A stretch of 52,098 bases of DNA from the IMG/VR virus record IMGVR_UViG_3300025487_000013, positions 1-52,098 of that record; one strand, written 5' to 3'. This DNA comes from a virus. Numbering within the stretch: the stretch's first letter is position 1; every line of letters begins with the position of its first letter. The notes under the pieces were generated by a model. That model was not told the DNA's origin, ran no database searches, and saw only the letters and a list, made by a program, of their open reading frames with translations. Made by a program: the position numbers and the translations under genes. Shown here one piece after another: positions 55 to 50,009 of this stretch.

Positions 55-513
55 ATGGCTAGAGATAAAGAAAATATAAAAAGATTACAAAAAGAATGGT
101 ACCAAAAAAATAAAGATTTGGTAAAAGAACGTGCTCGTCTATGGCAATTAAATAATCCAGAACAAAAAGCAAAAATACGGACAAAATATAGACACGCTAA
201 TTTAATACAACATAATGAATATAATAAATTATGGTGGTCTAGCAATAAAGATAAAAGAGCATCATATCAAGCAAAAAGAAAAGCATCACAACTCCAACGC
301 ACACCAAAATGGCTCACAAAAGATGATTTATGGATTATTGAAGAAGCATATTCATTGGCTCAATTAAGAACAAACTTATTTGGTATTGATTGGCATGTCG
401 ACCACATTATCCCCTTGCAAGGCAAACTTGTTTCTGGTTTGCATGTGCCTTCCAATATACAAGTCATCCCCGCTACCGAAAACGTAAAAAAATCAAACAA
501 GCATCTATTTTAG
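55..513 (+). CDS. HNH endonuclease, homing type
   Basis: A 152-residue basic protein with a long Lys/Arg-rich helical N-terminus (about 1-85) and a C-terminal HNH fold: HVDHIIPL from about residue 114 (catalytic Asp-His pair), then SGLHV and Asn/Lys-rich NVKKSNK. It is expected to cut or nick double-stranded DNA; free-standing phage HNH genes of this kind usually act as homing endonucleases. The reading frame is open upstream to a TTG inside the terminator, so I take the ATG at 55. No clear ribosome binding site is visible. Its stop codon overlaps the first base of the phage promoter at 513. Its C-terminal core (DHIIP, GKLVSGLHV) closely matches the HNH gene at 10495, so the two probably share recent ancestry. 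Confidence 0.8.
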   Translation: MARDKENIKRLQKEWYQKNKDLVKERARLWQLNNPEQKAKIRTKYRHANLIQHNEYNKLWWSSNKDKRASYQAKRKASQLQRTPKWLTKDDLWIIEEAYSLAQLRTNLFGIDWHVDHIIPLQGKLVSGLHVPSNIQVIPATENVKKSNKHLF

Positions 514-543
514 GGCGAAACAGCATAATAATATGCATTAGTA
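513..543 (+). promoter_or_regulatory. Phage-type bipartite promoter copy 1
   Basis: GGGCGAAA at 513-520, 14 bases, then GCATTAGTA at 535-543. The same pair with exactly the same spacing recurs at 17606, 24187 and, on the - strand, at 40035. It points at the structural gene at 640. The leader between them contains a small hairpin (CTATCG/CGATAG, 571-590). No E. coli-type -10 is seen. Promoter function is inferred from recurrence and orientation. Confidence 0.65.
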
Positions 544-10494: not shown

Positions 10495-11112
10495 GTGTCT
10501 GTAGAGGTTAAAAGATGCACTCATTGCAAGAATGAAAAGCCATTTAGTGAGTTTCATAAACAACCTCACGGCAAGTTTGGTTTACGTGGCAGATGTAGTG
10601 TATGTGCTACAATGTTTAGAAAACCTATAGATCCTGCTAAAACAAAGTATTATTATGAAAAGAACAAAGAAAAGATTGCAGCTAGAGCTAAGGCAAAATA
10701 TTGGTCTGACCCAAAGAAACATAACTTAGCTGTCAAGCAGTCTAGACTAAAATATTATGATAAGCACTTAGCTTACTCAAGACAATATGAACTAGAACAC
10801 AAAGAAGAACGTAAGTTAAAAGATAAGGTATACGCACAAAATAATCCGCATAAAAAGGCGGCAATTGTATTAAAAAGAAAAGTTAAACAAAAACAATCAA
10901 TACCTAAATGGAGCAACATTGAAATGACTAAAAAGATTTATAAGCTTAGAGATAGGCTTAATGAACATTCTGGATATATTAAATATCATGTAGACCACAT
11001 TATTCCTATTAGTGGAAAATTGGTATCTGGTTTGCATGTAATAGAAAATCTAAAGATTGTTTTAGCTTCTTACAACTTAAGTAAAAATAATAAATATGAG
11101 GTGTCATTATGA
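10495..11112 (+). CDS. HNH homing endonuclease inserted in the fibre cluster
   Basis: 205 residues starting with GTG at 10495, 9 bases after AAGGAG. N-terminal zinc finger (C8, C11, C34, C37), Lys-rich middle, and C-terminal HNH with HVDHIIP near residue 165 followed by GKLVSGLHV and NLSKNNK. Its core matches that of the HNH at 55. It interrupts a run of fibre genes and overlaps the next fibre gene by ATGA, so it is co-translated. Likely function: cutting fibre loci of competing phages, which promotes gene conversion of this variable region. It could alternatively be a passive selfish gene. Confidence 0.82.
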   Translation: MSVEVKRCTHCKNEKPFSEFHKQPHGKFGLRGRCSVCATMFRKPIDPAKTKYYYEKNKEKIAARAKAKYWSDPKKHNLAVKQSRLKYYDKHLAYSRQYELEHKEERKLKDKVYAQNNPHKKAAIVLKRKVKQKQSIPKWSNIEMTKKIYKLRDRLNEHSGYIKYHVDHIIPISGKLVSGLHVIENLKIVLASYNLSKNNKYEVSL

Positions 11113-12515
11113 GTTTAGTTCTCAGTGGGGATCAACAGATAACAGGACCGCTTACCGTAGGGTTTGGTTCAGGGCAAATTACAAGTAATGTGGCTGTAGG
11201 GTTAAGTGCTTTAAATGCAAATACTACAGGAATAGGTAACATTGCTATAGGCATTAGCTCTTTAACACTTAATACTACAGGACAACAAAATGTAGCAATA
11301 GGATTAAGTGCTATGGCAAGTAACACCACAGGCTATAATAATGTGGCTATTGGCTCATATGCTTTAAATACAAATGTATCAGGCGCTGGAAATACAGTAG
11401 TTGGAGGAGCGGCACTTGCTTACAATACAGCATCAAATAATTCAGCTTTTGGTAATGGAGCTTTAGGAAACAACACCTCAGGCACTCCCAACGATGCTTT
11501 CGGCTACCAAGCTCTTTATAGTAATACAACTGGTACAGGTAATACTGCTTTGGGTTTTGCTTCTTTACAATCAAATACAACAGGTGTAAGCAATGTAGCA
11601 ATAGGTCAACAAGCATTACAATCCAATACAATAGGACAAAACAATGTTGCTATAGGACCATTTTCATTAATTACTAATGTATCATCTTCTTTTAATACAG
11701 CAGTAGGATTTGCTGCATTAAACTTAAATACAGCAAGTAATAACACAGCAGTTGGATTTGACGCACTAAGTAAAAACACCACAGGGACACCCAACGATGC
11801 CTTCGGATACCAAGCCCTCTATAGTAATACGACTGGTGCTACTAATGTAGCAGTTGGTTATCAGGCTCTTTACAGTCAAACTATTGGAACATCAAATGTA
11901 GCTGTAGGACAAACTGCATTATATGGATTAACTACAGGAGTTAATAATATTGCTATAGGAGCAGCAGCAGGCTATGCAGGAACTGCACTTACTATAGGAA
12001 CTCAATGTATTTATTTTGGCACAAATGCAAAAGCATCTGCAAATAATGTCAATTATGAAATTGTAATAGGTAACAACAACTCTGGTGGTGTTGTAGGTAA
12101 GGGTTCAAATACAGTATTTATTAATGCAAATAGCGGTGGTAATTACAACGGTGCAAATAGTACAGCTTGGTCTACAACTTCTGATCAAAGAATTAAGAAA
12201 AACATTGTAGACAATACAGATGGACTAGATAAAATAACATCTATTCGTGTACGTAACTTTGAATATCGCTTACCAGAAGAAGTGGATGAAACATTACAGC
12301 CCTCTGATGCAGTTATAAAAGAAGGAGTTCAATTAGGAGTTATTGCACAAGAACTTCAACAAACACTTCCAGATTGCGTTAGAGAAGAGTCAACTGGTGT
12401 TTTATCTGTGCAAACCGACAATCTTACTTGGTATCTTGTAAACTCTATCAAAGAATTAGCAGCTAAGGTAGAAGCATTAGAAGCACAACTTGCAAAAGCA
12501 ACACCAACAGTATAA
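11109..12515 (+). CDS. Tail fibre with adhesin-like repeats and S74 chaperone
   Basis: 468 residues. About residues 20-290 are repeats of the type NTTGxxNVAIGxxAL, as in trimeric autotransporter adhesin heads, with GTPNDAFGYQALYSNTTG present twice almost unchanged. From about residue 356 a peptidase S74 chaperone begins (TTSDQRIKKNI), with GVIAQELQQTLPD and a C-terminal coiled coil. The product should form a trimeric beta-roll fibre released from its chaperone by self-cleavage. It is coupled to the HNH gene by ATGA overlap. Two 63-bp DNA segments (11472-11534 and 11775-11837) differ at about eight positions only. Confidence 0.88.
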   Translation: MSLVLSGDQQITGPLTVGFGSGQITSNVAVGLSALNANTTGIGNIAIGISSLTLNTTGQQNVAIGLSAMASNTTGYNNVAIGSYALNTNVSGAGNTVVGGAALAYNTASNNSAFGNGALGNNTSGTPNDAFGYQALYSNTTGTGNTALGFASLQSNTTGVSNVAIGQQALQSNTIGQNNVAIGPFSLITNVSSSFNTAVGFAALNLNTASNNTAVGFDALSKNTTGTPNDAFGYQALYSNTTGATNVAVGYQALYSQTIGTSNVAVGQTALYGLTTGVNNIAIGAAAGYAGTALTIGTQCIYFGTNAKASANNVNYEIVIGNNNSGGVVGKGSNTVFINANSGGNYNGANSTAWSTTSDQRIKKNIVDNTDGLDKITSIRVRNFEYRLPEEVDETLQPSDAVIKEGVQLGVIAQELQQTLPDCVREESTGVLSVQTDNLTWYLVNSIKELAAKVEALEAQLAKATPTV

Positions 12516-12543: not shown

Positions 12544-13203
12544 ATGATGCGCAAAGTAATGATAGGTACTCCAGCATTTGATGGTAGGATAGACGTTTGG
12601 TTTGCTAATAGCTTAGTCAACACAGTTAAATTAGCAGTACAAAGACAAGTAGATTTAAGACCGATTTATATGTCGTATGATAGCTTAGTCCAACGGGCAA
12701 GAAACGATATAGTTAGGTTAGCAGTAGAAGAAGACTTTGATGATCTTATTTTTATTGATAGTGACGAAGAGTGGAACCCTGAATGGATTTTTAAGTTACT
12801 AGCGTTTAAAGAAGAAGTCATAGGTTTACCAGTCGTTAAAAAGTCAGACCAGATGATGTTTAATATTAAAGCATTGCCTGATGGCCTAAAGATGCAACAA
12901 AATGGTTTGATGGAAGTAGAAGCTGTCGGTACTGGGTTTATGAAGATATCTCGTTCAGCTTTGAAAAAGGTTTGGGATGCAAGTCCTGAATACCAAAACG
13001 AAGGTAGATCGTGCAGAATGGTGTTTGATGTTAAAATTATTGATGGGCAATTAGTCAGTGAAGACAACATATTCTGTAGTAAATGGCGAAACCTAGGTGG
13101 TAAAGTATTTATAGAGCCATCAATGACTTGTAACCACATAGGTGTTAAAAAGTACCAAGGAAATTTTTTAGAGTATTTAAAATTTTTACAACAAACTAAA
13201 TGA
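12544..13203 (+). CDS. Glycosyltransferase-like protein (GT-A type)
   Basis: 219 residues. It begins MIGTPAFDG like GT-A nucleotide-sugar transferases and has the metal-binding DxD type motif in IFIDSDEEW (72-77), followed by VIGLPVVKK and GTGFMKISR. These features suggest transfer of a sugar from a nucleotide sugar, to host lipopolysaccharide, phage DNA or virion protein; the substrate cannot be told. Two adjacent Met codons start the frame. It overlaps the following gene by ATGA. Its position after the fibre cluster favours a role in surface modification or superinfection exclusion. Confidence 0.65.
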   Translation: MMRKVMIGTPAFDGRIDVWFANSLVNTVKLAVQRQVDLRPIYMSYDSLVQRARNDIVRLAVEEDFDDLIFIDSDEEWNPEWIFKLLAFKEEVIGLPVVKKSDQMMFNIKALPDGLKMQQNGLMEVEAVGTGFMKISRSALKKVWDASPEYQNEGRSCRMVFDVKIIDGQLVSEDNIFCSKWRNLGGKVFIEPSMTCNHIGVKKYQGNFLEYLKFLQQTK

Positions 13204-13658
13204 TAAATAGCACAAAAGCAGGTCTACTATTACTAGGATTACTCCATCTATCTAATGGCGTACCTGCTGAATTGCCCAACCCAAAAATAACACCAGGGCA
13301 AACAAGAAGTGTAACACTAAAAGAACTCTGTACGACCTCTACCTCATTGGTACGTAACGTGCCAGACGCATTGAAAAAAGATGTATTTAGTAATTATGGC
13401 ATGAATGGTAATGATAAGTCTAAATGTGCTGAAGGTTATGAAATAGATCACCTTATTAGTTTAGAGTTAGGTGGAAGCAATAGTGGTGATAACCTATGGC
13501 CACAAAGCTATTGCGGTGAAAATAGTGCCCATAAAAAAGATAAGCTAGAAAATGAATTGCATAGACAAGTTTGTTTAGGTAAAATAGGACTAGAAGAAGC
13601 CCAATTGTGCATTAGTAAAGATTGGGAACAGTGTTACATTAAAGTTTACCACAAATAG
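13200..13658 (+). CDS. Exported HNH nuclease
   Basis: 152 residues. The first about 23 residues (Lys at 6, then LLLLGLLHL and VPA) form a signal peptide. The mature part contains an HNH fold of a secreted type: YEIDHLISLELGG (H84), SGDNLWPQ (N98) and AHKKDKLENELH, with six Cys residues in the mature part that could form disulphides outside the cytoplasm. Predicted to degrade DNA in the periplasm or outside the cell. It is translationally coupled (ATGA) to the glycosyltransferase-like gene. It could block entry of rival phage DNA, or salvage host DNA at lysis; neither is shown by sequence. Confidence 0.72.
   Translation: MINSTKAGLLLLGLLHLSNGVPAELPNPKITPGQTRSVTLKELCTTSTSLVRNVPDALKKDVFSNYGMNGNDKSKCAEGYEIDHLISLELGGSNSGDNLWPQSYCGENSAHKKDKLENELHRQVCLGKIGLEEAQLCISKDWEQCYIKVYHK
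13609..13617 (+). promoter_or_regulatory. Possible core-only promoter ahead of the oxygenase gene
   Basis: GCATTAGTA in the context CCAATTGTGCATTAGTA, closely like the copy at 24209. It lies inside the 3' end of the exported HNH gene, 74 bases before the ATG at 13691. The upstream element at the standard distance is degenerate (5 of 8 matches), and the stretch also encodes protein, so this may be chance. Confidence 0.3.
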
Positions 13659-13690: not shown

Positions 13691-14230
13691 ATGATTATTG
13701 AAAAGCTACTACCTCAAGAACTTGAGGACGAAATATTTAAAATTATGACAGCCAACGGATTTCCTTGGTACTGGAATGCAGAGAATATAGTCCCAGCAAC
13801 ACCGGACTCTCATATATTTCAATTTACACACGTATTTTACATATACCAAAAAGTATACTCATCCTACTTTAACATAGCCAACATGATTGTGGGCTACTTT
13901 GCCGAAAAGACAAAACTTAAAATAAAACGTGTAGTTAGAGTAAAAGGTAATTTAATACCAGACATTACACACACGCCCGAGTCACTTAATAATTTAATAC
14001 ACGGTGATATTGAGGATGAAAGAGATGGTAAGTACGTATCCTTTGTGTATTATGTGATGGATTCAGATGGTGATACCATTATTTATGATGATAACAATAA
14101 CATCGTAGAAACATCACCACCAATAAAAGGTAATTGTATTTGGTTTGACTCTAAAACAAAGCACAGATCTTCTGTGCCACTTCACCACAAAAGAAGAGTA
14201 GTGATTAACTTTATTTTGGAGGTTGAATGA
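13691..14230 (+). CDS. 2-oxoglutarate/Fe(II) oxygenase-like protein
   Basis: 179 residues. The iron-binding triad is visible as HGD (H104, D106) and H158 in KTKHRSS, with R168/R169 in RRVVINF as the 2-oxoglutarate anchor; the surrounding YVSFVYYVMDSDGD and KGNCIWFDS strands fit the prolyl-4-hydroxylase-like double-stranded beta-helix. Such phage enzymes hydroxylate protein side chains or small molecules; the target is unknown. Overlaps the next gene by ATGA, so the two are co-translated and may work together. Confidence 0.72.
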   Translation: MIIEKLLPQELEDEIFKIMTANGFPWYWNAENIVPATPDSHIFQFTHVFYIYQKVYSSYFNIANMIVGYFAEKTKLKIKRVVRVKGNLIPDITHTPESLNNLIHGDIEDERDGKYVSFVYYVMDSDGDTIIYDDNNNIVETSPPIKGNCIWFDSKTKHRSSVPLHHKRRVVINFILEVE

Positions 14231-17104: not shown

Positions 17105-17620
17105 ATGAAACATTTACATATGATTGTTTGCGTAATTGGATTGCTTATCTCTAGTGTATGTAACACAGGGCAATCATTCACATTTGACAATTTTAAACCA
17201 CACCATCTTGTTTTTATCAAACGTTTGGAAGGGTACAGCAACACGGCGTACCGTGACGCTAAAGGACTATATACGATTGGCATAGGTCACCTTATTAAGC
17301 CATCTGAAAAGCATCTTAAGACAGCTTTTTTAACTGATAAAGAAGTCACTCAATTATTTGAGTCGGACTTAAGTATTTGTAAAGCCGCGGTAGAGGAATC
17401 TATTGATGTGCCATTGGGTGAGTTTCAGTACGATGCGCTCTATAGCCTGTGCTTTAACATTGGTGCAGATAACTTTAAACGTTCTTTGGTTGTCAAAAGA
17501 CTTAACCAAAATGACATAAAAGGGGCCGCTAATGCCATACTTTTATGGAACAAACCCGCCAATTTGGAGTACAGACGTAGAGTCGAAAGAGAATTATTTC
17601 TGGCGGGGCGTAAAGTATAG
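17105..17620 (+). CDS. Exported lysozyme, GH24 (T4/P21 type)
   Basis: 171 residues. Catalytic triad in normal spacing: E42 (RLEGYSN), D51 (AYRDAKG), T57 (LYTIGIGH). The first about 23 residues are hydrophobic (IVCVIGLLISSVC), either a cleavable signal peptide or a weak signal-anchor-release segment, so this enzyme can reach the periplasm by Sec without a holin hole. Start ATG 17105 has AAGGAAGGAG upstream; a small hairpin (TTTACG/CGTAAA) lies just before it. Its last codons overlap the -35-like element of the next phage promoter. Confidence 0.87.
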   Translation: MKHLHMIVCVIGLLISSVCNTGQSFTFDNFKPHHLVFIKRLEGYSNTAYRDAKGLYTIGIGHLIKPSEKHLKTAFLTDKEVTQLFESDLSICKAAVEESIDVPLGEFQYDALYSLCFNIGADNFKRSLVVKRLNQNDIKGAANAILLWNKPANLEYRRRVERELFLAGRKV

Positions 17621-17636
17621 TAAATATGCATTAGTA
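17606..17636 (+). promoter_or_regulatory. Phage-type bipartite promoter copy 2
   Basis: GGGCGTAA at 17606-17613, 14 bases, GCATTAGTA at 17628-17636, followed by TGGATAAGGG. It begins inside the end of the lysozyme gene and points into the connector/internal-virion operon starting at 17692. Spacing is the same as in copies at 513, 24187 and 40035. Confidence 0.65.
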
Positions 17637-17691
17637 TGGATAAGGGCTGATCTCCCTATTCTATTCAATTTAACCTCGAGGAAATACCATA

Positions 17692-18666
17692 ATGGACGGA
17701 TTCAAAAAACTACCTAAGATGAAAACAGGCGGCAGCGTATGTGAGGCTGTTAAAAAATGCTATGGCGGCTCAATGAAAAAAGGCGGCAAGTACAAAGAAG
17801 GCGGCGACATTAAACAAGACAAAGCCCTCATTAAAAAAGCATTCAAGCAACATGATGAAGCAGAGCACGACAAAGAGCCAACAGAAATCAAATTAAAACA
17901 TGGTGGCCGTTCTAAAAAAGAAGCTGGTACAGTTAAAAAATACAAAGCGGGTGGCGCAATCGAGATGAAAAAATCTTCAGGCGATTTAGACACTATTAAG
18001 AAGATTAAAGCTACTAAAAACAAAAAAGCTGATGCTCCAAACAAAGCAACATTAAGACCTAACTTAAAAGGTTCTGACGTAGAAAAAGAAAAATCAAAAC
18101 CAGCTGGCGAAAAAGATACTATCAAAAAAGTACCACCAACAGGTGACAAAAAAGCGGACGCACCAAACAAGGCCGCAGTTAAAAAAGCACCTAAGGGTGA
18201 AGATGCCGTTGATGATATTGATGGTATGAAAAAAGGTCACGCTGTAAAAAAGCATAAAGCTGGCGGTCATATTAAGCACATGGCTGACGGCGCATTAACT
18301 GCTCCTATTCTTCCTCCAAATATTCAACAACAATTAGCAATAGCACAAGCATTGCAATCTGCTGGTCAACAAGCACAACAAGGAATGCAATCTGGTCAAC
18401 AAGTTAATCCTAATGCAATGAATACAACATTAAATTCACCATATGGACCTAATCGTTTGTCAAGCACGCAAATGCAAATGGCTAATCGTGCAGCAGCCAC
18501 AGGCGCAAATGTTCCATCTAGTGCTAATCAACCTCCTGCGTATCCATACACAGCGAATGATGTGATGAATAATCAATTCTCAAGAAGTGGATTAAATAAC
18601 AAAGCTGTAGATGCATTATTAGGATCAATGGCTAAACGTGGTATGTTTTCTCACACTGGGGACTAA
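17692..18666 (+). CDS. Lys/Gly-rich virion protein with KxGG repeats
   Basis: 324 residues. The first about 200 are extremely basic with repeated GG-containing boxes (MKTGGS, MKKGGKYKEGGD, KHGGRSK, YKAGGAI, HKAGGHI) and two copies of a KADAPNKA segment; the rest is Gln/Asn/Ala-rich. No known fold is visible. The charge suggests contact with DNA, for example an internal head protein packaged with the genome. First gene of the operon behind promoter copy 2, with CGAGGAAAT as binding site. A similar basic Gly-rich flavour appears in the small proteins at 18669, 29873 and 39671. Confidence 0.6.
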   Translation: MDGFKKLPKMKTGGSVCEAVKKCYGGSMKKGGKYKEGGDIKQDKALIKKAFKQHDEAEHDKEPTEIKLKHGGRSKKEAGTVKKYKAGGAIEMKKSSGDLDTIKKIKATKNKKADAPNKATLRPNLKGSDVEKEKSKPAGEKDTIKKVPPTGDKKADAPNKAAVKKAPKGEDAVDDIDGMKKGHAVKKHKAGGHIKHMADGALTAPILPPNIQQQLAIAQALQSAGQQAQQGMQSGQQVNPNAMNTTLNSPYGPNRLSSTQMQMANRAAATGANVPSSANQPPAYPYTANDVMNNQFSRSGLNNKAVDALLGSMAKRGMFSHTGD

Positions 18667-21801: not shown

Positions 21802-23925
21802 ATGGCGGATCAACAACAAGTTGAACCACAGTACAATGAAGTTTATACTCTAGGTGTCCAGCCCGGTATAAAACGAGATGGTACCACATTTGAATCACGT
21901 GAATATAGTGATGGTGTTTGGTGCAGATTTCAACGCGGTGTGCCCAAAAAAATTGGTGGATATACTGAACTAGCAACCACATTCAATGGCATCCCACGTG
22001 GCATGGTTATGAATGGGTACAATGGTGTTAACTATGTATTCTCAGGTAACCAAAATGGTTTAGATGTATTTACCACAGGCCAATCTTTTGGTATTGGTAG
22101 TGGTCCATCAGTAGCTCAGTTTGAAGTAGGGTACTCTCCATTTACTGTTACTAAAGTAACGAACTCATCATTTACTATTTCTGGTGCGGATCGTACTGCT
22201 CAGTTTTATACAGGATCTAATTTTGTATTTAGTCAATCCACAAATCCTACATTTTATTCTGTAACATCATCATCCTATAATTCTGGTACTACAACGACAA
22301 CCGTTAATTTTTCCCCAAATAACAGTGCGTCATTTACACAAGTTTATTTAGCAAATACTTATTTTAAAGCGGATCCTAGATTACTGTGGCAGTTTGATTA
22401 TCAGTATAATCCCCAAGGTGGCGCACTTAATTTAATTACACACCCCGGACTTAACTTAAATTCTATTGATAACGGTGTGGCAACACAGGTTTACATTGGA
22501 AGCACACTACCTAATTCAAGTAATCAGTGGGTATTTACAGGATTAGCAGATACGACAGGTGTAGCCCCAACCTATAAACCTATTGTGGTTGATGGTGGCG
22601 TTTGTGTGCTTCACCCATTTATATTTGTGTACGGATCTAATGGATTTATTGCAAATAACAATGTATCCACAACCTACACTAATCAAACACTAACCGACTG
22701 GAATGGTACATTTGCCAACCAAGTTAACGTTGCTACAGGTAAAATTGTAAAAGGTATGCCTGTGCGTGGTGGTACAGCGTCGCCATCAGGTTTATTCTGG
22801 GCTACAGATAGTTTGATTCGTGTCTCATTTGTAAACAATCCTCCAGTCTATTGGCAATACGATATCATATCAAGTGAGATATCAATCATGTCATCAAGCG
22901 CTGTGGTTGAAATGGATGGCGTTTATTTCTGGATGGGTGTTGATAGATTCTATGTTTACAATGGTCAAGTGAATGTATTACCTAATGATAAAAATGTAAA
23001 CTGGTTATTTGATAATATTAATTATACTCAACGTCAAAAAGTGTGGGCCACAAAAGTTCCTAGGTATAATGAGATTTGGTTCTTCTACCCACGTGGTGGC
23101 GCTACGGAATGCACTGATGCAATTATTTATAATGTAAAAGATAAGATCTGGTATGACGCTGGGCAGGCAGAGGGTGCTCAAAGATCGAGTGGGTTTACAA
23201 CAGAGGTTTTTCCTTCCCCCATTTTTGGTGGTTGGAATTTTAATGTATCCTACAGCTCCCCTAAAAATGTCATTGCGACACCTACAGGGCAGTCTGCAGC
23301 AACAGCATTTCAATTTTATTTATTGGGGGATCAGTCAACACAATTTTCCCCTGGTCAGTACGTAACATTATCTAATACATCCCCAACAGCACCTAAATAC
23401 TTAATTACATCAAGTCAATTTATTATTAATACAACCATAGGTATGCCAGGTGCTACATTAGTCACTGTGGCTACTACTTTTGGATCATCACCATCTGTAG
23501 GTACACCCATGTACATTATTAGTGGAGGGTATGGTATTTGGCAACATGAGACAGGATTAAACAAAGTATCCATTAATAGTGAGGATGCTATTTATTCTTC
23601 TTTTGCAACTTGTGATATTAGTTGGGTAGGTGGAACACCCTCAGAAGATACATCCACAGGTATTAATCGTCGTATGCACTTACGTCGTGTTGAGCCAGAT
23701 TTTGTACAAAGTGGTCCAATGACTATGACAATTTATGGTCGTAAGTTTGCGCGTGGTCCTGAAGAAGATTCTGGTCCTTATGTATTTACAGCAGATACAG
23801 AAAAAATTGATTTAAGAGTAGAGCACCGAGAAGTTAGATTAGAGTTTGAGTCTAATACGATTGATGGTAATTATGAAATGGGTCGATTATTAATCACCGC
23901 AGAGTACGGTGACGAAAGGCCATAG
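21802..23925 (+). CDS. Tail hub / packaged-DNA stabilisation protein (P22 gp10-like)
   Basis: 707 residues. The N-terminus has the family pattern GIKRDGTTFESREYSDGVWCRFQRGVPKK...GGY, found in tail hub proteins of P22-like short tails; the remainder is beta-propeller-like (repeated VYFWMGVDRFYVYNGQV and YNEIWFFYPR type strands). It should close the portal channel after packaging and hold the fibres or spikes. It directly follows a beta tail protein and shares its stop with the start of the small next gene. The assignment rests on the N-terminal pattern and gene order. Confidence 0.75.
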   Translation: MADQQQVEPQYNEVYTLGVQPGIKRDGTTFESREYSDGVWCRFQRGVPKKIGGYTELATTFNGIPRGMVMNGYNGVNYVFSGNQNGLDVFTTGQSFGIGSGPSVAQFEVGYSPFTVTKVTNSSFTISGADRTAQFYTGSNFVFSQSTNPTFYSVTSSSYNSGTTTTTVNFSPNNSASFTQVYLANTYFKADPRLLWQFDYQYNPQGGALNLITHPGLNLNSIDNGVATQVYIGSTLPNSSNQWVFTGLADTTGVAPTYKPIVVDGGVCVLHPFIFVYGSNGFIANNNVSTTYTNQTLTDWNGTFANQVNVATGKIVKGMPVRGGTASPSGLFWATDSLIRVSFVNNPPVYWQYDIISSEISIMSSSAVVEMDGVYFWMGVDRFYVYNGQVNVLPNDKNVNWLFDNINYTQRQKVWATKVPRYNEIWFFYPRGGATECTDAIIYNVKDKIWYDAGQAEGAQRSSGFTTEVFPSPIFGGWNFNVSYSSPKNVIATPTGQSAATAFQFYLLGDQSTQFSPGQYVTLSNTSPTAPKYLITSSQFIINTTIGMPGATLVTVATTFGSSPSVGTPMYIISGGYGIWQHETGLNKVSINSEDAIYSSFATCDISWVGGTPSEDTSTGINRRMHLRRVEPDFVQSGPMTMTIYGRKFARGPEEDSGPYVFTADTEKIDLRVEHREVRLEFESNTIDGNYEMGRLLITAEYGDERP

Positions 23926-24185
23926 TGGCTAATTTAGTTCAGCCCGTATTTCCTTTTGTACCACAGTACACAACATGGGAAAACTTTAACGGTAATATTG
24001 TTATGTTCTACGGCCATGAGCCTATTCCATATAGTAAGGAAGAGGACTGGCAGTCAACGGCTAGGAACATCACTCAACTTCCAACATTTTCAAGTTATAC
24101 CGTGCCAGATCCAAGTCTATATGACAAATGGGAGGATTGGGCTAATCAATTTGTGCTAATTATCAACGGTAAACCCCCACAATAA
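23925..24185 (+). CDS. Small virion-associated protein
   Basis: 86 residues, starting with GTG that shares its G with the hub gene stop codon (TAGTG). Trp/Pro-rich (YTTWENFNGN, YSKEEDWQST, YDKWEDWANQF) and probably globular. I do not recognise a family. The overlap with the hub gene suggests that it is made with it, perhaps as a tail accessory subunit. It is followed within 2 bases by promoter copy 3. Confidence 0.6.
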   Translation: MANLVQPVFPFVPQYTTWENFNGNIVMFYGHEPIPYSKEEDWQSTARNITQLPTFSSYTVPDPSLYDKWEDWANQFVLIINGKPPQ

Positions 24186-24186
24186 T

Positions 24187-24217
24187 GGGCGTAAAAATGC
24201 CAATTTGTGCATTAGTA
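24187..24217 (+). promoter_or_regulatory. Phage-type bipartite promoter copy 3
   Basis: GGGCGTAA at 24187-24194, 14 bases, GCATTAGTA at 24209-24217, then TACCTAG and the ATG of the acetyltransferase gene at 24225. With a start site about 7 bases after the core, the message would begin at or next to the ATG. Confidence 0.65.
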
Positions 24218-24224
24218 TACCTAG

Positions 24225-24677
24225 ATGATAACCTTTCAAAAAGAGCCCGGAAGTGTCTTTTTACCTGACGCTAAAGACCTATTTAAACTGCATGCTAATG
24301 AAGCATCAGAGCACTTAGATAAGATACCACTCGATCCTAATTTTGAGCAATATTTTAAATTAGAAGAACTCAATAAAATAGAAGTTCACACTGCCCGAGA
24401 TGATGGCAAATTAATTGGTTATAGTTTGTGGCTACTTGGTAGGCACATACATTACAAAAAAAGTTTAACAGCAACATCCACACTTATATACTTATTACCA
24501 CAGTACCGAAATGGCACTACCGGTTTTACTTTTATTAGGTGGACGATAGAAGAAATTAAAAAGAGGAAACCACAAAGAATCTTAATGTCGGTCAAACCAA
24601 GCAATGATTTTGGTAGACTATTAGAAAGATTGGGTGGCAATTATTTTGAAAAAGTGTATTCATTTGTATTGGAGTAA
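24225..24677 (+). CDS. GNAT-family N-acetyltransferase
   Basis: 150 residues with the GNAT layout: beta strands around LIGYSLWLLG, the acetyl-CoA region LIYLLPQYRNGTTGFTFIRW and the end strand NYFEKVYSFVLE. Transfers an acetyl group from acetyl-CoA to an amine; the substrate is unknown. GNAT genes of this size are common among internal virion genes of podoviruses. The ATG lies only 8 bases from the promoter core and has no Shine-Dalgarno sequence, so it may be translated from a leaderless message. Confidence 0.78.
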   Translation: MITFQKEPGSVFLPDAKDLFKLHANEASEHLDKIPLDPNFEQYFKLEELNKIEVHTARDDGKLIGYSLWLLGRHIHYKKSLTATSTLIYLLPQYRNGTTGFTFIRWTIEEIKKRKPQRILMSVKPSNDFGRLLERLGGNYFEKVYSFVLE

Positions 24678-36639: not shown

Positions 36640-37157
36640 TAAACTGCGAAGTCTGCAGCGGCGGATGTACCACCACCAAGTTTTTCACCGTCTTCTGTTT
36701 TTTGAACATTGTTTAATCCAACCGCAATACCTTTAGAACCTGAGGCATTGTATGGATAGAGTGTTACAGATGCACGACCATAGCAACCGCTATAGAATTC
36801 TGATGGATCAATGATCGCATTCATATCTGCATCTACAACACCTGGTTTATTAGCTGAGTTAGCATTTACAAAGTATGAATTAGCATAAGCCGGATCATCC
36901 TTCTCTGCGTCACCATCACGTAAACCACCTTTTAAACCTTTTGGTACTGCGCCACCAAAGAAAGCTGCGTTTGTATTTGCCGCATCTTCGAAAGCTTTTT
37001 GAAACTTAGCAACTGTTTCAGTATCAGATTTTGGAATGATAATTGATACTGAATACTTTGGTGTACCGCCTTCAACAGCAGCTTGTGGTTGAAACACATG
37101 CGCATATGAGAAACGTACTTTACCAGTTACAATTTTAATTTTATTAGTTGCTGCCAT
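36639..37157 (-). CDS. ssDNA-binding protein, Enc34/DUF2815 family
   Basis: 172 residues. KVRFSYAHVFQPQ, KYSVSIIIPKSD, the GLRDGD segment, FVNANSANKPGVVD and FYSGCYGRASVTLYPYN are family hallmarks of the OB-fold phage ssDNA-binding protein first described for phage Enc34. It protects single-stranded DNA during replication and recombination. Strong GGAG before the ATG and its own sigma-70-like promoter (37221-37249) indicate high, early expression. Confidence 0.87.
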   Translation of the reverse strand: MAATNKIKIVTGKVRFSYAHVFQPQAAVEGGTPKYSVSIIIPKSDTETVAKFQKAFEDAANTNAAFFGGAVPKGLKGGLRDGDAEKDDPAYANSYFVNANSANKPGVVDADMNAIIDPSEFYSGCYGRASVTLYPYNASGSKGIAVGLNNVQKTEDGEKLGGGTSAAADFAV

Positions 37158-37220
37158 ATATTACTCCTTAACGTTAGAATCAAACTTCAATCGGGGCTGA
37201 TTCGTCTACCCGTAAAAAAC

Positions 37221-37501: not shown

Positions 37502-38057
37502 ATCTTAAGTAAGACGGAAGCTTTATTTTTTCTTTAAAGTTCTCTATCTGATTGGTAAATTGTTCGTAGCGTTCTCTGTAAACTTTTGAATCGGTGAACT
37601 TGAGATCTGGAATAACTAGCTGAACATTGTACACGTAACAGTACTCATAAAAGAATTGAGCGTGCACCAACTCTCTTTGAAGTATTTGTCTTATCATACT
37701 GTCCAGGGCGTCTCCCTTTAATTTTGGATTCTCAACAGCGAAGTAGCGTTTTGTGATTTCTACAAAAGACCAAAAAGAATCCTGAACATTTTCTCTTGTT
37801 AGGAATATGTTTGTTTTTTGTAAATTAAAAAAGTTAATTGAGTGATTGTTTATAACTGCTCTATCAAAATCAATCGTTCTTAAAAATGCAGGGTTCTTTG
37901 GATTATGCTCCGGCACTTTTATTTCATGGATTAAATGCTTGAGTGGCTTTTTAATATCCATGTTAAGTATCTCATCGTAAAGAGGTACCTTTAATTGTTT
38001 GGCTAAATCATAACAAAACTTTGTTGACCCACAACGTCCTATTGAGGAGACAATCAT
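37494..38057 (-). CDS. Sulfotransferase-like P-loop protein
   Basis: 187 residues. The N-terminus SSIGRCGSTKF (4-14) resembles the PAPS 5'-phosphosulfate loop of sulfotransferases, followed by HxHxIKVPEHN and the strand NIFLTRENVQDSFWSF, which fits the second PAPS-binding region (R-E/D-N-V). It is short for the family. If active it would move sulfate from PAPS onto a host or phage molecule; a nucleotide-binding protein of other function is possible. Overlaps both neighbours by 4-8 bases. Confidence 0.55.
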   Translation of the reverse strand: MIVSSIGRCGSTKFCYDLAKQLKVPLYDEILNMDIKKPLKHLIHEIKVPEHNPKNPAFLRTIDFDRAVINNHSINFFNLQKTNIFLTRENVQDSFWSFVEITKRYFAVENPKLKGDALDSMIRQILQRELVHAQFFYEYCYVYNVQLVIPDLKFTDSKVYRERYEQFTNQIENFKEKIKLPSYLRYE

Positions 38058-39190
38058 TTGAAATCATCCGCAGCGTTGGCTGAAGTATCTCTTACCAATT
38101 TAGGTGACCCCTCTGGGCGTTGTACTAAATCACCTAACCAAGCTACCACTTGACCTTTGGCCGCTAACTTTTCTAGCGTTGCGATAGATTTTAGTTTGAC
38201 AGGTTCATAAATGGTATCTTTAGGAAGACCCTTTTCAAGTAGCACTTTGGCAGCAAGTTCAGTATCAGTGATCTTGCGATGTGTTGTTGTCGTTGTTAAT
38301 TTAAAACCGATCGGGATCTTATGTTCATTGACAGCTCGATCAAGTGCGTGAGTTTCTACATCATTTACCCATGTGCGTAAGTCTTGCGCTTTTGATAATA
38401 CAATATTAAGCTCATCTTCTGTTAATAAAGGAGGTTCTTTAAAATCGAGTTTAGCTAGCTCATTATTATAATCAGCTCGCGCACGACACAAAGCTTTTGC
38501 CTTACAGAATTGGCAATGATTTCCAGGTACATAGTTACCCGATCCTGTCCAAGCTTTTGCTGCTTTGGGTTTTACAAAATACTCTGCCCAATCCACAAGT
38601 TTATGAAGGGTTGTGCTATCTGTTGTAATGCTATCCAATCGAGGTTGGATGATTGTATATTTAACTTCTTTGATATTTGGGTACTTGACTTTAAATTTAT
38701 TCCATGCGCCTAAACTATACAATCTTAATTGTGGATTATCTATAGCTGATACAGGAATGCCTGCACCATATTTTAAATCCATGACATGAATTGAATTTTC
38801 TGATAATACTACAACGTCTGCAGTTCCGAAGCCGTCATTTACCCATTCTGAAAAGTCTACCTTTTGTTCAAACATAGGCTCATCGTTGGCACCAATCTGC
38901 GATCTTACATAGACAACATAGTTATCTGTATAAACTTCCATCTCTTCATTATAGTATTGAGTGAGTTTAATAATCTCAAGCTCTCGTTTATATTCCTCAC
39001 TACTAATCTGCCCATAATGGAGACGCAGTTTGATTTCAGATAAAGTGTGGGCTGTTGTGCCTTCTGCTGAATAATCAAATGCATTTGGGTTTCTTGGAGT
39101 ATCGGGGAGTGTACTTTCGAGTCTTGCGGAAGGAGTACATGTTAGCCATCTTTTGGATCCGGAGGCTGAGAGAAATGCGTGTGCAGTCAT
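38054..39190 (-). CDS. RecB/Cas4-like nuclease, DUF2800 family
   Basis: 378 residues. Starts AHAFLSASGSKRWLTCTPS as in DUF2800; the nuclease core shows GTADVVVL and HVMDLKYG (D, D-x-K) and QLRLYSLGAW; a Cys cluster (GNHCQFCKAKALC, about 222-235) fits an iron-sulfur cluster. Predicted exonuclease for recombination or processing of replicating DNA, probably with the ssDNA-binding protein. It is the first gene behind the promoter core at 39223-39231. Confidence 0.82.
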   Translation of the reverse strand: MTAHAFLSASGSKRWLTCTPSARLESTLPDTPRNPNAFDYSAEGTTAHTLSEIKLRLHYGQISSEEYKRELEIIKLTQYYNEEMEVYTDNYVVYVRSQIGANDEPMFEQKVDFSEWVNDGFGTADVVVLSENSIHVMDLKYGAGIPVSAIDNPQLRLYSLGAWNKFKVKYPNIKEVKYTIIQPRLDSITTDSTTLHKLVDWAEYFVKPKAAKAWTGSGNYVPGNHCQFCKAKALCRARADYNNELAKLDFKEPPLLTEDELNIVLSKAQDLRTWVNDVETHALDRAVNEHKIPIGFKLTTTTTHRKITDTELAAKVLLEKGLPKDTIYEPVKLKSIATLEKLAAKGQVVAWLGDLVQRPEGSPKLVRDTSANAADDFK

Positions 39191-39222: not shown

Positions 39223-39231
39223 TACTAATGC
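39223..39231 (-). promoter_or_regulatory. Phage-type promoter core (degenerate upstream element)
   Basis: TTTTGCATTAGTATAAG on the - strand, immediately after a terminator and 33 bases before the DUF2800 gene. The upstream element at the standard distance is only partly matched (CCCCGAAA, shifted by one base, inside the terminator stem). Confidence 0.5.
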
Positions 39232-39253
39232 AAAAAAATACCCCTTTCGGGGC
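39231..39253 (-). terminator. Terminator with GAAA tetraloop between terminase and nuclease genes
   Basis: On the - strand CCCC-GAAA-GGGG followed by TATTTTTTT. GNRA loop and T tract make it efficient in spite of the 4-bp stem. On the + strand the same hairpin is followed by CATTATTTTTT, so it may act in both directions. Confidence 0.7.
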
Positions 39254-39282
39254 ATTATTTTTTAACTAAATTGAAAATATTT

Positions 39283-39666
39283 TTATTGCTTTAAGGCGGA
39301 AATTAGGTTAGCTATTTCTTTATTAAAGTCGACTACAACCTCTGCTTTGAGATCAATCTTTTGTTCTCTTGAGTCTTTGTAATCATCGGGGTATTGGCCT
39401 CGTAATGCAATCTCTGCAACACGGGAATTGAATGCTTTGTTTTCGATATTGGCTAACATCAAATTTTCCCAATATGCTTGACCATAGGTTGTTGCTAAAT
39501 CCATAGCTTCTGCAAATACAGGATCTTCTTTTTTAAGTTTAAGCGCAGTTGTTTTACTTATGCCAATTGCGGCGTACATCGCTTTTTGTGATGCACCTTG
39601 CTGCCCAAGAAGTAAAATCTTCTTAGCATCTTCTTCATTAAACTTATATTTTTTGTTTGTTGCCAT
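39283..39666 (-). CDS. Terminase small subunit-like DNA-binding protein
   Basis: 127 residues. N-terminal helix-turn-helix (NEEDAKKILLLGQQGASQKAMYAAIGISKTTALKLKKEDP), then AMDLATTYGQAYWENLMLANIENKAFNSRVAEIALRGQYPDDYKDSRE and a helical end, the typical layout of small terminases. It would recognise the packaging site and bring in the large subunit, which is not in this window. Located away from virion genes, which is unusual for a terminase small subunit; a regulator with the same fold is possible. Confidence 0.72.
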   Translation of the reverse strand: MATNKKYKFNEEDAKKILLLGQQGASQKAMYAAIGISKTTALKLKKEDPVFAEAMDLATTYGQAYWENLMLANIENKAFNSRVAEIALRGQYPDDYKDSREQKIDLKAEVVVDFNKEIANLISALKQ

Positions 39667-39670: not shown

Positions 39671-39847
39671 TTATTTCTTTAAACCTTTTAATGTTTCTGC
39701 AAGTCTTGCGCGTTTACCTGTCACACCAGGTTTCTTTGCTGCAGCTGCAAGTTTGCCAGCGGGAATCTTTTCACCTTTTTTAACACCAAGAGATTGTTTT
39801 AATGCACCTGGTTTTTTAATTGCTTTCTGAATCCACTTTTCTGCCAT
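39671..39847 (-). CDS. Small basic protein
   Basis: 58 residues, MAEKWIQKAIKKPGALKQ..., with GVKKGEKIPAGKLAAAAKKPG and RARLAETLKGLKK. Lysine-rich small proteins of this kind occur widely in phages without known function. It overlaps the DUF1289 gene by 32 bases in another frame and ends 4 bases before the terminase-like gene. Weak binding site (AGGAGA in the upstream gene). Confidence 0.65.
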   Translation of the reverse strand: MAEKWIQKAIKKPGALKQSLGVKKGEKIPAGKLAAAAKKPGVTGKRARLAETLKGLKK

Positions 39848-39989
39848 CTTGTATTCTCCTAATGACTTCTTCTTTTTGTTTATTGGTGTAGTTATACCAG
39901 TCTACTATTTCGGATACATGTCGTTTACATCCACGACAATACTCATTGTCTAATCGACAAACACCGATGCAAGGGCTATTAGTAGGCAT
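39816..39989 (-). CDS. DUF1289 small Cys-rich protein
   Basis: 57 residues. SPCIGVCRLDNEYCRGCKR (C7, C11, C18, C21) is the DUF1289 signature, a family of small putative iron-sulfur or zinc proteins known in bacteria, followed by the helical DWYNYTNKQKEEVIRRI. The role is unknown in bacteria and phage. The promoter core at 40005-40013 precedes it by 16 bases; its start codon sits in a hairpin with that promoter sequence. Confidence 0.8.
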   Translation of the reverse strand: MPTNSPCIGVCRLDNEYCRGCKRHVSEIVDWYNYTNKQKEEVIRRIQDGRKVDSESN

Positions 39990-40004: not shown

Positions 40005-40035
40005 TACTAATGCACAAACTAGTCTTTTTTCGCCC
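40005..40035 (-). promoter_or_regulatory. Phage-type bipartite promoter copy 4 (- strand)
   Basis: GGGCGAAA (40035-40028), 14 bases, GCATTAGTA (40013-40005). Same spacing as the three + copies. It overlaps the 3' end of the gene at 40019-40216 and drives the DUF1289, basic and terminase-like genes. The core with the next 20 bases forms an imperfect inverted repeat reaching over the start codon. Confidence 0.68.
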
Positions 40036-40428: not shown

Positions 40429-40691
40429 ACTTTTCTCCTTTTATCTAGTTCTCGTTGAATGTACCATATCGCCTTTTCTAAGTCTTCTATGGCATCGTGT
40501 TTTAAATCTGCACGCCAGATGTACTTCACGGCATTCCCAAGACAGAAGTTCATATGTTCTGTAATTTGAATGCACTCTATATTTTCACCACAAATACATT
40601 TAGCTGGGTTACTCGTATAATGCTTTGGATGATTAACTGGATCATTTTGATCCTCAACCATTCCAAGCCAATTTTTTTCGCTTATAGCCAT
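40425..40691 (-). CDS. DUF3310 protein
   Basis: 88 residues. DPVNHPKHYTSNPAK, ECIQITEHMNF, LGNAVKYIWRADLK and IEDLEKAIWYIQRELD are the DUF3310 marks. Often annotated as phage nucleotide-kinase-like, but biochemistry is lacking. CxC near the centre (C32, C34) is a variation. Coupled to the sigma-region-4-like gene by a shared stop/start (TAATG). Confidence 0.82.
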   Translation of the reverse strand: MAISEKNWLGMVEDQNDPVNHPKHYTSNPAKCICGENIECIQITEHMNFCLGNAVKYIWRADLKHDAIEDLEKAIWYIQRELDKRRKV

Positions 40692-41011
40692 TATAAATTT
40701 AGCTCCTTTTTAATAATCTCTAATCCCTTACCAAAATGATATCTCCAGTATTTTTCTGTCACGGATATATCATTGTAAGTTAAACCATCAAGGTAAGCCT
40801 CAAAAATAAATTGTTGTTTTGGGTCAAGCTTAGCGTCAATGATTTTTCTAATGTCTATTAAGTCTTCCTCGGTCCAGGGTAACCAACCATCAATCAGTGT
40901 GGCTGAGAAGTTACCTTCCTTAGAGTCATCGCGCTCCATGGGATCAGGGTCCTCGTCGGATAGTCTGGGCATCATAGCGTTAACTTTATGTTTTAGTTTG
41001 TTATTTTCCAT
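40691..41011 (-). CDS. Helix-turn-helix protein resembling sigma region 4
   Basis: 106 residues. Acidic N-terminal half (MPRLSDEDPDPMERDDS), then PWTEEDLIDIRKIIDAKL and LDPKQQFIFEAYLDGLTYNDISVTEKY, WRYHFGKGLEIIKKEL, which has the arrangement of sigma-70 region 4 (L-x-P-x-Q-R, G-x-S/T-Y-x-E-I, last basic helix). It has no regions 1-3. It could provide the -35 contact for the separate sigma homologue at 47630, or be an independent regulator. The start codon is 9 bases after the promoter core at 41020-41028, with no Shine-Dalgarno sequence. Confidence 0.6.
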   Translation of the reverse strand: MENNKLKHKVNAMMPRLSDEDPDPMERDDSKEGNFSATLIDGWLPWTEEDLIDIRKIIDAKLDPKQQFIFEAYLDGLTYNDISVTEKYWRYHFGKGLEIIKKELNL

Positions 41012-41016: not shown

Positions 41017-42366
41017 CTATACTAATGCAAAATCTAGGGCATTTAAGACAGCATTTTGGATATTTATTTTACCTTCCAAAACTTGTATCACTTGGTTATC
41101 AATACTGCGACTTAAGACTAAATGATGGATAATCACAGGCTTGGTTTGACCTTGGCGATGTACCCTGGCATTTGCTTGGATATAGTTTTCACTTGACCAT
41201 GGTAAATCATACCAAACCATCTGTGCCGTATCGGCTACATTACATTGTAAGTTAATTCCTATGCCGCCCGATTGTGGATGCGCCAACAACATCTTAATCT
41301 TACCTTGTCGCCAATCTTCTATCGTTTGTGGATTGCTATCTAATAATCTTGCATGGGAAAATTTTGCCTGTAATCCTGCAAGTGATGATTTATAATGGTA
41401 AAAGACTAATGTAGGTATGTTTTCATCTACAAGATCTTCCAAATAATCTAACTTAGCATCATGTTGTTTTAGCCATGTGCCGTCTTCTTTATAAAGTGAC
41501 CCTGAGGTAAACTGTAATAGCTTGTTTGTTAGAGCCGCGGCGGTGACTGCCGTAATGGTTTCTGCTTCAACTTCTAGCACCATGTCTTTACGTAATCGAT
41601 CATAAGCACTTCTTGTAGCTTGACCAATCTCGACCGTATGATATACCTTGGTGACTTCTGGGAGTGTAAGGTAATCCTCCGCCTTGAGTGAGAAGCATAT
41701 GTCTTTGATCTTGTCATTAATTACCTCATCCGCCTTGGGTATGATGCCCCACTTATAGATCACGCCCGTGTGCCTGTTACGTTCGATCGGCATCATGTAC
41801 TTGTCACGGAACTTAGTGAGTGATGTTTCTAATCTTTGGCCGAGATCTAATATGGCAACTTGTGACCATAGGTCTTGGTAACCTTGAGGTGTGGGTGTAC
41901 CTGTTAGAATGATACGGCGTTTGAATGTTTTAAGAAAAGGTTTAATCGCTTTGAATCTTTTTGTTGATGAGTCCTTGAAACGTGATGACTCATCGATGAC
42001 AAGATTATCAAACTTTGTCATGGGTATTTTTAACTCAGTTAACCACACTACATTTTCTAAATTGATGATGTATATATCGGCATCTTTTTGTACTGCCTCA
42101 ACACGTTCTTTTGGATTGCCTAATATCTTAGAGACGCGGAGGTGTTTGGTATGTTCCCATTTTGTTACTTCTTCTGACCATACTGATTCAGCAACTTTTT
42201 TAGGTGCTATGATGAGTGTGCGGCCTTTACATTGCTCTGCAATAATTGTGAGCGTTGTTGCGGTTTTACCAAGTCCCGGATTTAATAGTAATCCAATACA
42301 TGGAATGGATGATGCTTTATCTACAATATCTTTTTGATACTGATGTAAGTTATTTCTGTTCAGCAT
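41017..42366 (-). CDS. SNF2-type DEAD-like helicase
   Basis: 449 residues. Motif I NPGLGKTAT (29-37), motif II DESSRFK (125-131, DEAH variant), motif III LTGTPTPQG (154-162), motif VI QANARVHRQGQTKP near the C-terminus, as in SWI/SNF helicases. It would remodel DNA or replication intermediates. Overlaps the HNH-like gene by 17 bases. Its last codons GCA TTA GTA TAG are also the promoter core pointing to the next gene. Confidence 0.88.
   Translation of the reverse strand: MLNRNNLHQYQKDIVDKASSIPCIGLLLNPGLGKTATTLTIIAEQCKGRTLIIAPKKVAESVWSEEVTKWEHTKHLRVSKILGNPKERVEAVQKDADIYIINLENVVWLTELKIPMTKFDNLVIDESSRFKDSSTKRFKAIKPFLKTFKRRIILTGTPTPQGYQDLWSQVAILDLGQRLETSLTKFRDKYMMPIERNRHTGVIYKWGIIPKADEVINDKIKDICFSLKAEDYLTLPEVTKVYHTVEIGQATRSAYDRLRKDMVLEVEAETITAVTAAALTNKLLQFTSGSLYKEDGTWLKQHDAKLDYLEDLVDENIPTLVFYHYKSSLAGLQAKFSHARLLDSNPQTIEDWRQGKIKMLLAHPQSGGIGINLQCNVADTAQMVWYDLPWSSENYIQANARVHRQGQTKPVIIHHLVLSRSIDNQVIQVLEGKINIQNAVLNALDFALV
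41020..41028 (-). promoter_or_regulatory. Promoter core overlapping helicase stop
   Basis: TTTTGCATTAGTATAG on the - strand, 9 bases before the ATG of the region-4-like gene. The upstream element is poor (TGTCTTAA). Because these bases encode Ala-Leu-Val-stop of the helicase, protein and promoter constraints coincide. Confidence 0.45.
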
Positions 42367-44488: not shown

Positions 44489-44615
44489 TGTCATCTCCAT
44501 ATTTATAATTTATATCTTGTATTGTTTCAATAAGGACGACAACAATAAAACCAATCCACCATTTATAGTTAGCGTCAAAATGATATAGCAAAAAAGCGGT
44601 TAAAAAATCTAGCAT
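44478..44615 (-). CDS. Small membrane protein coupled to the primase gene
   Basis: 45 residues: DFLTAFLLYHFDAN, then a membrane segment KWWIGFIVVVLIETI and a charged end. Its start overlaps the primase-helicase stop (TAATG), so translation is coupled. AAGGAGC lies upstream. No family recognised. Confidence 0.5.
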   Translation of the reverse strand: MLDFLTAFLLYHFDANYKWWIGFIVVVLIETIQDINYKYGDDNGN

Positions 44616-46948: not shown

Positions 46949-46957
46949 AACTAATGC
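46949..46957 (-). promoter_or_regulatory. Promoter core variant before the primase gene
   Basis: AAATTTGCATTAGTTAGGACGAATATG on the - strand: core GCATTAGTT (last base T), then AGGACG as binding site and the primase ATG. No GGGCG element upstream; the position lies in AT-rich DNA. Confidence 0.42.
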
Positions 46958-47025
46958 AAATTTTATACAAAATTATAAATATATTTTTTCTTGTGTGTCA
47001 AATGATGCTGTAAGTCCTTGATTTA

Positions 47026-48705: not shown

Positions 48706-48733
48706 ATTATAGACCATTATTAGCATCAGTCAA
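48706..48733 (-). promoter_or_regulatory. Strong sigma-70 promoter
   Basis: On the - strand TTGACT (48733-48728), 16 bases, TATAAT (48711-48706), 35 bases before the ATG at 48671. It reads into the operon with the sigma factor, so host polymerase should make the phage sigma early. Overlaps the end of the upstream gene. Confidence 0.78.
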
Positions 48734-49513: not shown

Positions 49514-49547
49514 TTGTTTCTCCTTAGTGGTTAAGTATTGCATCCTA

Positions 49548-49576
49548 ATTGTCTCAAATTACCAGGGGGGTGTCAA
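49548..49576 (-). promoter_or_regulatory. Sigma-70 promoter of the early operon
   Basis: On the - strand TTGACA (49576-49571), 17 bases, GACAAT (49553-49548). Consensus -35 with a moderate -10; it lies right of the first early gene and directly left of the repeat region. Confidence 0.68.
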
Positions 49577-49631
49577 GCAAAATTTACCCAAATATTATTT
49601 TATTATAGTTGATGTGTAAATTTTGGAATTT

Positions 49632-49818
49632 AAGAATGCTTATGTACACCGTGGTTTCCAGATTTTGCTCTGAAAGAATGCTTATGTACATCGTGGTTTC
49701 CAGATTTTGCTATGAAAGAATGCTTATGTACATCATGGTTTCCAGATTTTGCTCTAAAAGAATGCTTATGTACATCGTGATTTTCCAGATTTCAAAGTAA
49801 AAGAATGCTTATGTACAT
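49632..49818. repeat. 42-bp tandem repeat array, 4.4 copies
   Basis: Units start at 49632, 49674, 49716, 49758 and 49801 (periods 42, 42, 42, 43), each beginning AAGAATGCTTATGTACA and containing the palindrome ATGTACAT in most copies. The first three also share GTGGTTTCCAGATTTTGCT; copy 4 has drifted in its second half. No reading frame here is convincing. Possible roles: protein-binding iterons, a repeat-rich RNA, or a packaging/partition site. Confidence 0.85.
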
Positions 49819-49850
49819 GAGGGTTTTTAATTAAATAACCTTGTTAAGAT

Positions 49851-49902
49851 TATGGGTAATAAATACCCATACTCTCATTATGGTTATTAAATAACCATAA
49901 TG
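49851..49902. repeat. Two adjacent strong palindromes
   Basis: TATGGGTA / TACCCATA (8-bp arms, 5-base spacer, 49851-49871) and a 27-base near-perfect palindrome with 13-bp arms CATTATGGTTATT / AATAACCATAATG around one base (49876-49902). Their symmetry suits dimeric protein binding or cruciform extrusion. They come directly after the tandem repeats. Confidence 0.75.
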
Positions 49903-49984
49903 GTAAAAGGGTTATTCTAAAAAATCCCTTAATCTCGCATCAAATCAATGCTTGAGCTCTGAAATAGTGTGCAATTCATCGCAC

Positions 49985-50009
49985 AATCGCTCTATACGCG
50001 ATTCTTTTT
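49985..50009 (+). terminator. + strand terminator, first of a repeated pair
   Basis: AATCGC / GCGATT with a 7-base loop and CTTTTT. Nearly the same hairpin recurs at 50093. No + strand gene lies upstream for several kb, so it may end a non-coding transcript or antisense transcription. The bases up to the next hairpin include another GGCTTT/AAAGCC-T tract element near 50056-50076; I see no gene in 49577-50302. Confidence 0.6.

Follow-up and report, generated by a model that had tools for sequence, protein, structure and literature searches.

A sigma factor divided by domain between two phage-encoded polypeptides probably redirects the host RNA polymerase to a distinct family of promoters, with a 106-aa subunit adding the reading of a −35 box, although there are no transcript or binding data. 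The stretch of DNA analysed (the window) is a linear 52-kb IMG/VR virus fragment, record IMGVR_UViG_3300025487_000013, positions 1 to 52,098, with mostly virion genes on the + strand and replication and early genes on the − strand. It is proposed that host sigma-70 promoters of the early region would give rise to the phage sigma (regions 1.2, 2 and 3, 193 aa), which alone would read an extended −10 sequence, TTTGCATTAGTA, with the hexamer CATTAG at −12 to −7, and so switch on the middle and replication genes, that for the 106-aa protein included. The 106-aa protein would then take the place of sigma region 4 and read GGGCG at −35, 17 bp upstream, and late and structural genes carrying both halves would be switched on by the two proteins together, RNA starting around 5-6 bases past the core and several of the mRNAs therefore being leaderless. 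The 106-aa subunit, itself a middle product, would add −35 reading, so that temporal class would come down to the presence or absence of one five-base box. A two-position switch of this kind, with the −10 subunit acting alone at middle promoters, a detachable region 4 subunit creating the late class and many mRNAs leaderless, seems to us evenly balanced between right and wrong. What computation supports is that the motif exists and falls into two classes, that its spacing is fixed, that the sigma lacks region 4 and that sigma and the −10 covary.

The four full copies of GGGCGWAA-N14-GCATTAGTA from which the original prediction set out are all exact and are placed and oriented as it had them, and the full pattern with up to three mismatches is met 7 times in the window against 0.14 expected from shuffles. 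The first late-class promoter (513..543, +) has GGGCG at 513-517 as its −35 and the core at 535-543, a predicted RNA start at 548-549, and would drive the tail/structural genes 607-1170. The second (17606..17636, +; GGGCG 17606-17610, core 17628-17636, predicted start 17641-17642) would drive 17692-18666, in the family of which GGGCG is found in 13/13 sites. At the third (24187..24217, +; GGGCG 24187-24191, core 24209-24217) the predicted start at 24222-24223 is next to the ATG at 24225, giving an almost leaderless transcript for 24225-24677 and the subsequent virion genes, and this ATG keeps an equal offset from the core in 5/5 relatives. The fourth (40005..40035, −; GGGCG 40035-40031, core 40013-40005, predicted start 40000-39999) stands as a promoter, its first gene being a small DUF1289 gene at 39816-39989 that had not been listed, followed by a putative terminase small subunit (39283-39666, −). 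The DUF1289 gene (− strand) is cysteine-rich, matches Pfam with an E of 1e-17 and is kept in close relatives. A noncoding RNA as the product of this promoter was ruled out, the transcript opening with the conserved DUF1289 gene.

Three − strand sites that had been described as carrying the core alone are also present. One (39223..39231), directly 3' of an intrinsic-terminator-like hairpin, would drive the exonuclease gene 38054-39190; another (41020..41028) is in the 3' end of the helicase gene and would drive the sigma-region-4-like gene (ATG 41011); the third (46949..46957, GCATTAGTT) is before the primase gene 44615-46939 and adjoins a consensus host promoter. GGGCG is in none of 14 related sites of the exonuclease type and in none of the 7 related sites, or genomes, of the region-4-like gene. 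The listing of cores had left out four exact ones, at 4113(−), 5697(−), 44873(−) and 13609(+). The first three are within genes and lack promoter context, and the last (13609..13617, +) may be a core-only promoter; it is at the 3' end of gene 13200-13658 and precedes 13691-14230, has a weaker consensus and is kept in one close relative (G010). At 39232-39260 (−) and in relatives many core-only promoters are found directly behind an intrinsic-terminator-like hairpin, the T-run of which supplies the promoter TTT in what is a terminator-promoter fusion. When sites are aligned the core holds, but the conserved stretch is longer than had been supposed, TTTGCATTAGTA-TA-NN-TA, and of the upstream half GGGCGWAA only GGGCG is firm, W varying and AA being merely a tendency.

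The motif was counted in a main set of 15 related contigs and the window, 710 kb in total, where exact cores number 120 against a mean of 6.75 for permuted cores (maximum 21). In 90 of the 120 the core is outside genes or within the final 60 nt of one, and a gene start in the right orientation follows within 150 nt. The promoter reading thus survived the refutation test set for it, in which a motif equally frequent within genes or facing the wrong way would have counted against it. At least 117 loci come from an exact scan of viral contigs. A further set of loci was gathered by means of the 106-aa protein (40691-41011), of which there are 301 relatives, so that the choice of locus was not biased by the motif, and here GCATTAGTA occurs 187 times and the backward string 11 times. 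That the motif is a real promoter sequence is supported, without transcript data. A repeat at gene ends with no role in transcription, such as a signal for packaging, replication or a mobile element, would account for the frequent position of sites at the ends of genes and immediately behind terminators, but not for a strand-specific orientation into the downstream gene, a split by gene function and a fixed distance to the start codon, and we give it next to no credence. The related contigs are fragments with genes called by a simple ORF picker, and the window (W), G016 and G010 are close relatives of each other, as are G007 and G008. Class counts are not independent because of such relatedness, although the split into classes still holds by family.

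That split corrects the idea of one bipartite family. Grouping the downstream genes into families defines two promoter classes, which share one −10 and in which the presence of GGGCG follows gene function. It is present in 30/30 sites before the terminase small subunit, portal, 17692, 607, 24225 and 24681 families and in 0/38 of the core-only sites (TTTGCATTAGTATA) before genes for exonuclease, SSB, primase, DNA polymerase and the 106-aa protein, where it is absent and not degenerate. The small, unnamed families 31, 37, 70, 71, 79 and 139, on the virion side or beside the terminase, always have it. Exceptions are the core-only sites before the 17105 (lysozyme-like) family, in three genomes, and before the 13691 family. 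In two relatives (G008 10855-11847, G015 23050-24021) an ORF of around 330 aa has intein/Hint-like ends and may be an intein within a gene for virion or packaging functions. In relatives a core-only phage promoter is also found directly before a stretch matching the Rfam DUF2815 RNA motif (RF03084), which in the window is at 37155-37212 (−), just upstream of the Gp2.5-like SSB gene.

The fixed gap of 14 bases proved exact. Among boxes 2-44 nt from a core in the 15 related contigs, 63/63 have 17 nt from GGGCG to the first base of the core, which equals N14 once the upstream half is written out as GGGCGWAA, and no other gap is present. It had been said that neither half matches sigma-70, which holds for the sequence; the geometry however is exactly sigma-70-like, with GGGCGW at −35 to −30, a 17-bp spacer and CATTAG at −12 to −7. 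Like host sigma-70 promoters the phage promoters have a 17-bp spacer, A at −11 and a start around 7 bases past −7, and unlike them both hexamers are off consensus and −7 is G (A or T in some clades). As in promoters of the T7 family, the TTTGCATTAGTATANNTA core is nearly contiguous, and one could imagine a single-subunit phage RNA polymerase using a contiguous element of around 20 bp with an accessory box. The fixed 17-nt gap and the covariation with sigma residues point to sigma instead, so that we regard a T7-type enzyme as very improbable. No such polymerase is annotated in the window, and PF00940 is matched in 0/16 related contigs, three of them of 59-68 kb, a weak negative since the control gave no match either.

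The placing of the RNA start rests on start codons. Among sites less than 70% identical, taking the core G as index 0, the first usable ATG has a sharp mode at index 14 (13 late and 12 core sites), in genes as unrelated as those for the terminase small subunit, primase, DNA polymerase and the region-4-like protein, among others. The late class has no ATG at index 9-13, and T13 A14 is found in 90-95% of late sites. The mode together with T13 A14 places the start at index 13-14, that is 5-6 bases past the core, inside the 5-9 bases first foreseen. Many mRNAs are inferred to be leaderless or nearly so, in the absence of transcript data.

The phage sigma (47630..48211, −; 193 aa) has regions 1.2, 2 and 3 and no region 4. 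Pfam Sigma70_r2 and r3 match over cut-off, the PHROG sigma profile at 5e-28 and SigA structures at E 2e-22. In the sigma family region 4 is usually in the same protein, though not in T4 gp55. In all motif-bearing relatives the sigma lacks it, stopping after region 3 at a length of 185-208 aa, and since all end at the same point a local frameshift does not explain the missing region 4. In a distant relative, G011, the sigma is full-length and includes its own region 4, and both the 106-aa protein and the motif are absent. A literature search found no phage sigma lacking region 4 with a −35 partner.

That the 193-aa protein reads the −10 core is proposed without binding data, and it appears so from covariation in 75 sigma loci with flanks, with residues given in E. 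coli sigma-70 numbering by alignment. Where residue 429 is T the seventh core base, at −7, is G in 51/54 loci (3 not-G), and with other residues G is found in 0/9 (nine not-T with not-G). Likewise 440E goes with T at −12 in 6/6, and 455K with C at −14 in 6/6 and in 0/57 otherwise; the clade with E at 440 and K at 455 has GTATTAGTT preceded by C and not T (6/6 for both bases). Residues 429, 440 and 455 correspond to the known sigma-70 contacts with −7, −12 and the extended −10, and because the covarying residues match these contacts the register is set as CATTAG at −12 to −7 and GGGCGW at −35 to −30 with a spacer of 17. A register with TGCATTAGT at −15 to −7 was considered and dropped for the present one, the 428/429 variants tracking the base at −7. 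About two independent evolutionary events underlie the covariation, each trait having changed around once on the tree, which makes the argument one of position and not of statistics, and as an independent-pairs test has one usable pair there is no p-value. Shared ancestry could be the cause, though the positions are the expected sigma-DNA contacts. The same evidence bears on whether these are promoters of a host alternative sigma merely adopted by the phages. The host RNA polymerase is needed if there is no phage polymerase, which is weak support for that origin; the −10 however changes between phage clades along with the phage sigma, and phage relatives without that sigma are also without the motif, and so a host sigma is barely credible.

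The second proposed subunit, the sigma-region-4-like protein (40691..41011, −; 106 aa), is the only region-4-like protein found. Pfam Sigma70_r4_2 is matched by 31/45 relatives with a best E of 2.2e-4, while the window protein itself matches weakly (E 0.026, 14.6 bits, below the cut-off of 25.7). An AlphaFold model is helical and confident over residues 48-106, and most of the best Foldseek matches are to domains of sigma region 4, with prob up to 0.89 and TMt up to 0.70 but E >= 0.76. Poor Foldseek E-values are expected for any tiny domain. A tblastn search against named phages gave no match, and the profile against PDB sequences gave unrelated chance matches only. That the protein reads GGGCG and would, as a region 4 domain, bind the beta flap is inferred without binding data or a direct link, as are the presence of both proteins in one holoenzyme and the temporal order. 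A VTEKYWRYHF-type segment of the protein and GGGCG itself are both constant across clades with differing −10, which, judged from sequence, may count for GGGCG reading, conservation not having been compared with that of other replication proteins.

As a rule a separate activator accepts, or makes use of, other spacings. It remains possible, though we think it unlikely, that the phage sigma reads the core and another late activator, MotA-like or some phage regulator, binds GGGCG, with the region-4-like protein serving for example to disarm host sigma-70. Nothing ties the 106-aa protein to GGGCG directly, which leaves room for this, as does a T4 coactivator at the beta flap that need not read DNA (PMC2988020), and other −35-region elements do exist, a TTTCACANTGTGAAA palindrome being 22 nt from the core at several primase promoters. 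Against it GGGCG is exactly at the region 4 position with a 17-bp spacer and no slack in 63/63, and the sole region-4-like protein found accompanies a sigma without region 4, so that the split sigma is preferred. The palindrome, TTTCACA(A/T)TGTGAAA, is at the −35 position of core-only primase promoters in G003 (40930), G005 (5987), G014 (31527) and G015 (15247), at 22 nt from the core in three contigs and 32 in G005; it looks like an operator for another regulator and is perhaps a third −35-region input.

Gene content suggests an inferred order of host sigma-70 for early, phage sigma alone for middle and sigma with the 106-aa protein for late transcription. A host sigma-70-type promoter (48706..48733, −; TTGACT-16-TATAAT, 11/12) is before the three-gene run that ends in the sigma gene, and in one relative (G015) three 12/12 sigma-70 promoters are upstream of its sigma gene. 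A consensus host promoter (46972..47001, −; TTGACA-18-TATAAT, 12/12) before the primase gene is 15 bp upstream of the phage core promoter, and is also in G009, G010 and G016. The perfect host promoter and the phage promoter are thus within around 50 bp of each other (46949-47001, −), an overlap that may hand control from host to phage sigma. A 760-bp stretch of the early strand at 49544-50302 has several hairpins and no obvious gene.

Among the nearest named phages by portal protein (Caulobacter RW, Roseobacter CRP-901, Pelagibacter HTVC027P, Alcaligenes QDWS535 and two environmental genomes) neither sigma nor region 4 protein was found, apart from one spurious 19-residue region 4 match inside a large ORF, and motif counts were not above those of a reversed control. 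The same profiles do detect their proteins in motif-bearing contigs. Among motif-selected contigs of at least 20 kb the region 4 protein is found in 8/22 and sigma in 5/22, co-occurrence being limited by fragmentation. The phage group bearing the motif is large, uncultured and freshwater, with no isolate found, and window bases 1-25,000 have only tiny near-identity matches among named phages. The 106-aa protein has a single relative in 84,980 reference genomes, L327 (contig CAIPQU010000110.1), in an uncultured betaproteobacterial MAG, a weak hint as to the host or possibly a mis-binned phage contig.

A literature search found no description of this promoter motif, and the known systems resemble the proposed one in part. 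T4 middle genes use sigma-70 with AsiA/MotA and not the late sigma. T4 late transcription by gp55 and gp33 (with the gp45 clamp) has been called a "split sigma", its late promoters being without a −35 element and gp33 not reading DNA sequence (PMC2988020), and gp33 has been described as having no structural relationship to sigma region 4 (PMC7892883). Alike are a small sigma-70-family −10 protein with a second small protein at the region 4 place, acting at late genes with host RNAP, and unlike are the strict −35 box and the resemblance of the second protein to region 4. The 106-aa protein and T4 gp33 gave an hhalign probability of 0.5%, in a single-sequence comparison of low power. SPO1 has late promoters with −35 and −10 and two small proteins of nearly equal sizes, gp33 (101 aa) and gp34 (197 aa). 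Its gp33 however belongs to Pfam Phage_Gene33, a domain found in SPO1 gp33 and not in members of the 106-aa family, and has no similarity to the 106-aa protein (hhalign 0.25%); gp34 shows region 2 and a weak trace of region 4 with no good profile match to the phage sigma, and middle genes use another sigma, gp28 by annotation. SigO-RsoA of B. subtilis is a two-subunit sigma of 22.5 and 9 kDa with domains 2-3 and 4 divided between the two (PMC10141391), termed a "two-part sigma" (PMC7218084). By literature comparison only, it too splits sigma domains over two polypeptides acting together, of sizes like those of the phage pair, but it is a cellular acid-stress system. From these likenesses and differences it follows that the phage system works like a split sigma and is a member of none of the T4, SPO1 and SigO-RsoA systems.

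If true, the arrangement would be a natural experiment separating the jobs of the sigma domains, in which a sigma without region 4 transcribes from the −10 alone and −35 recognition is gained via a separate region 4 protein, a separation that T4 with no −35 and SPO1 with an unrelated accessory do not show. Specificity could be mapped with the naturally occurring pairs of sigma and −10 variants, and the presence of the box would let middle and late genes be annotated by rule across hundreds of contigs from uncultured freshwater phages. For the phages themselves it would provide a simple switch, from replicating DNA to making virions.
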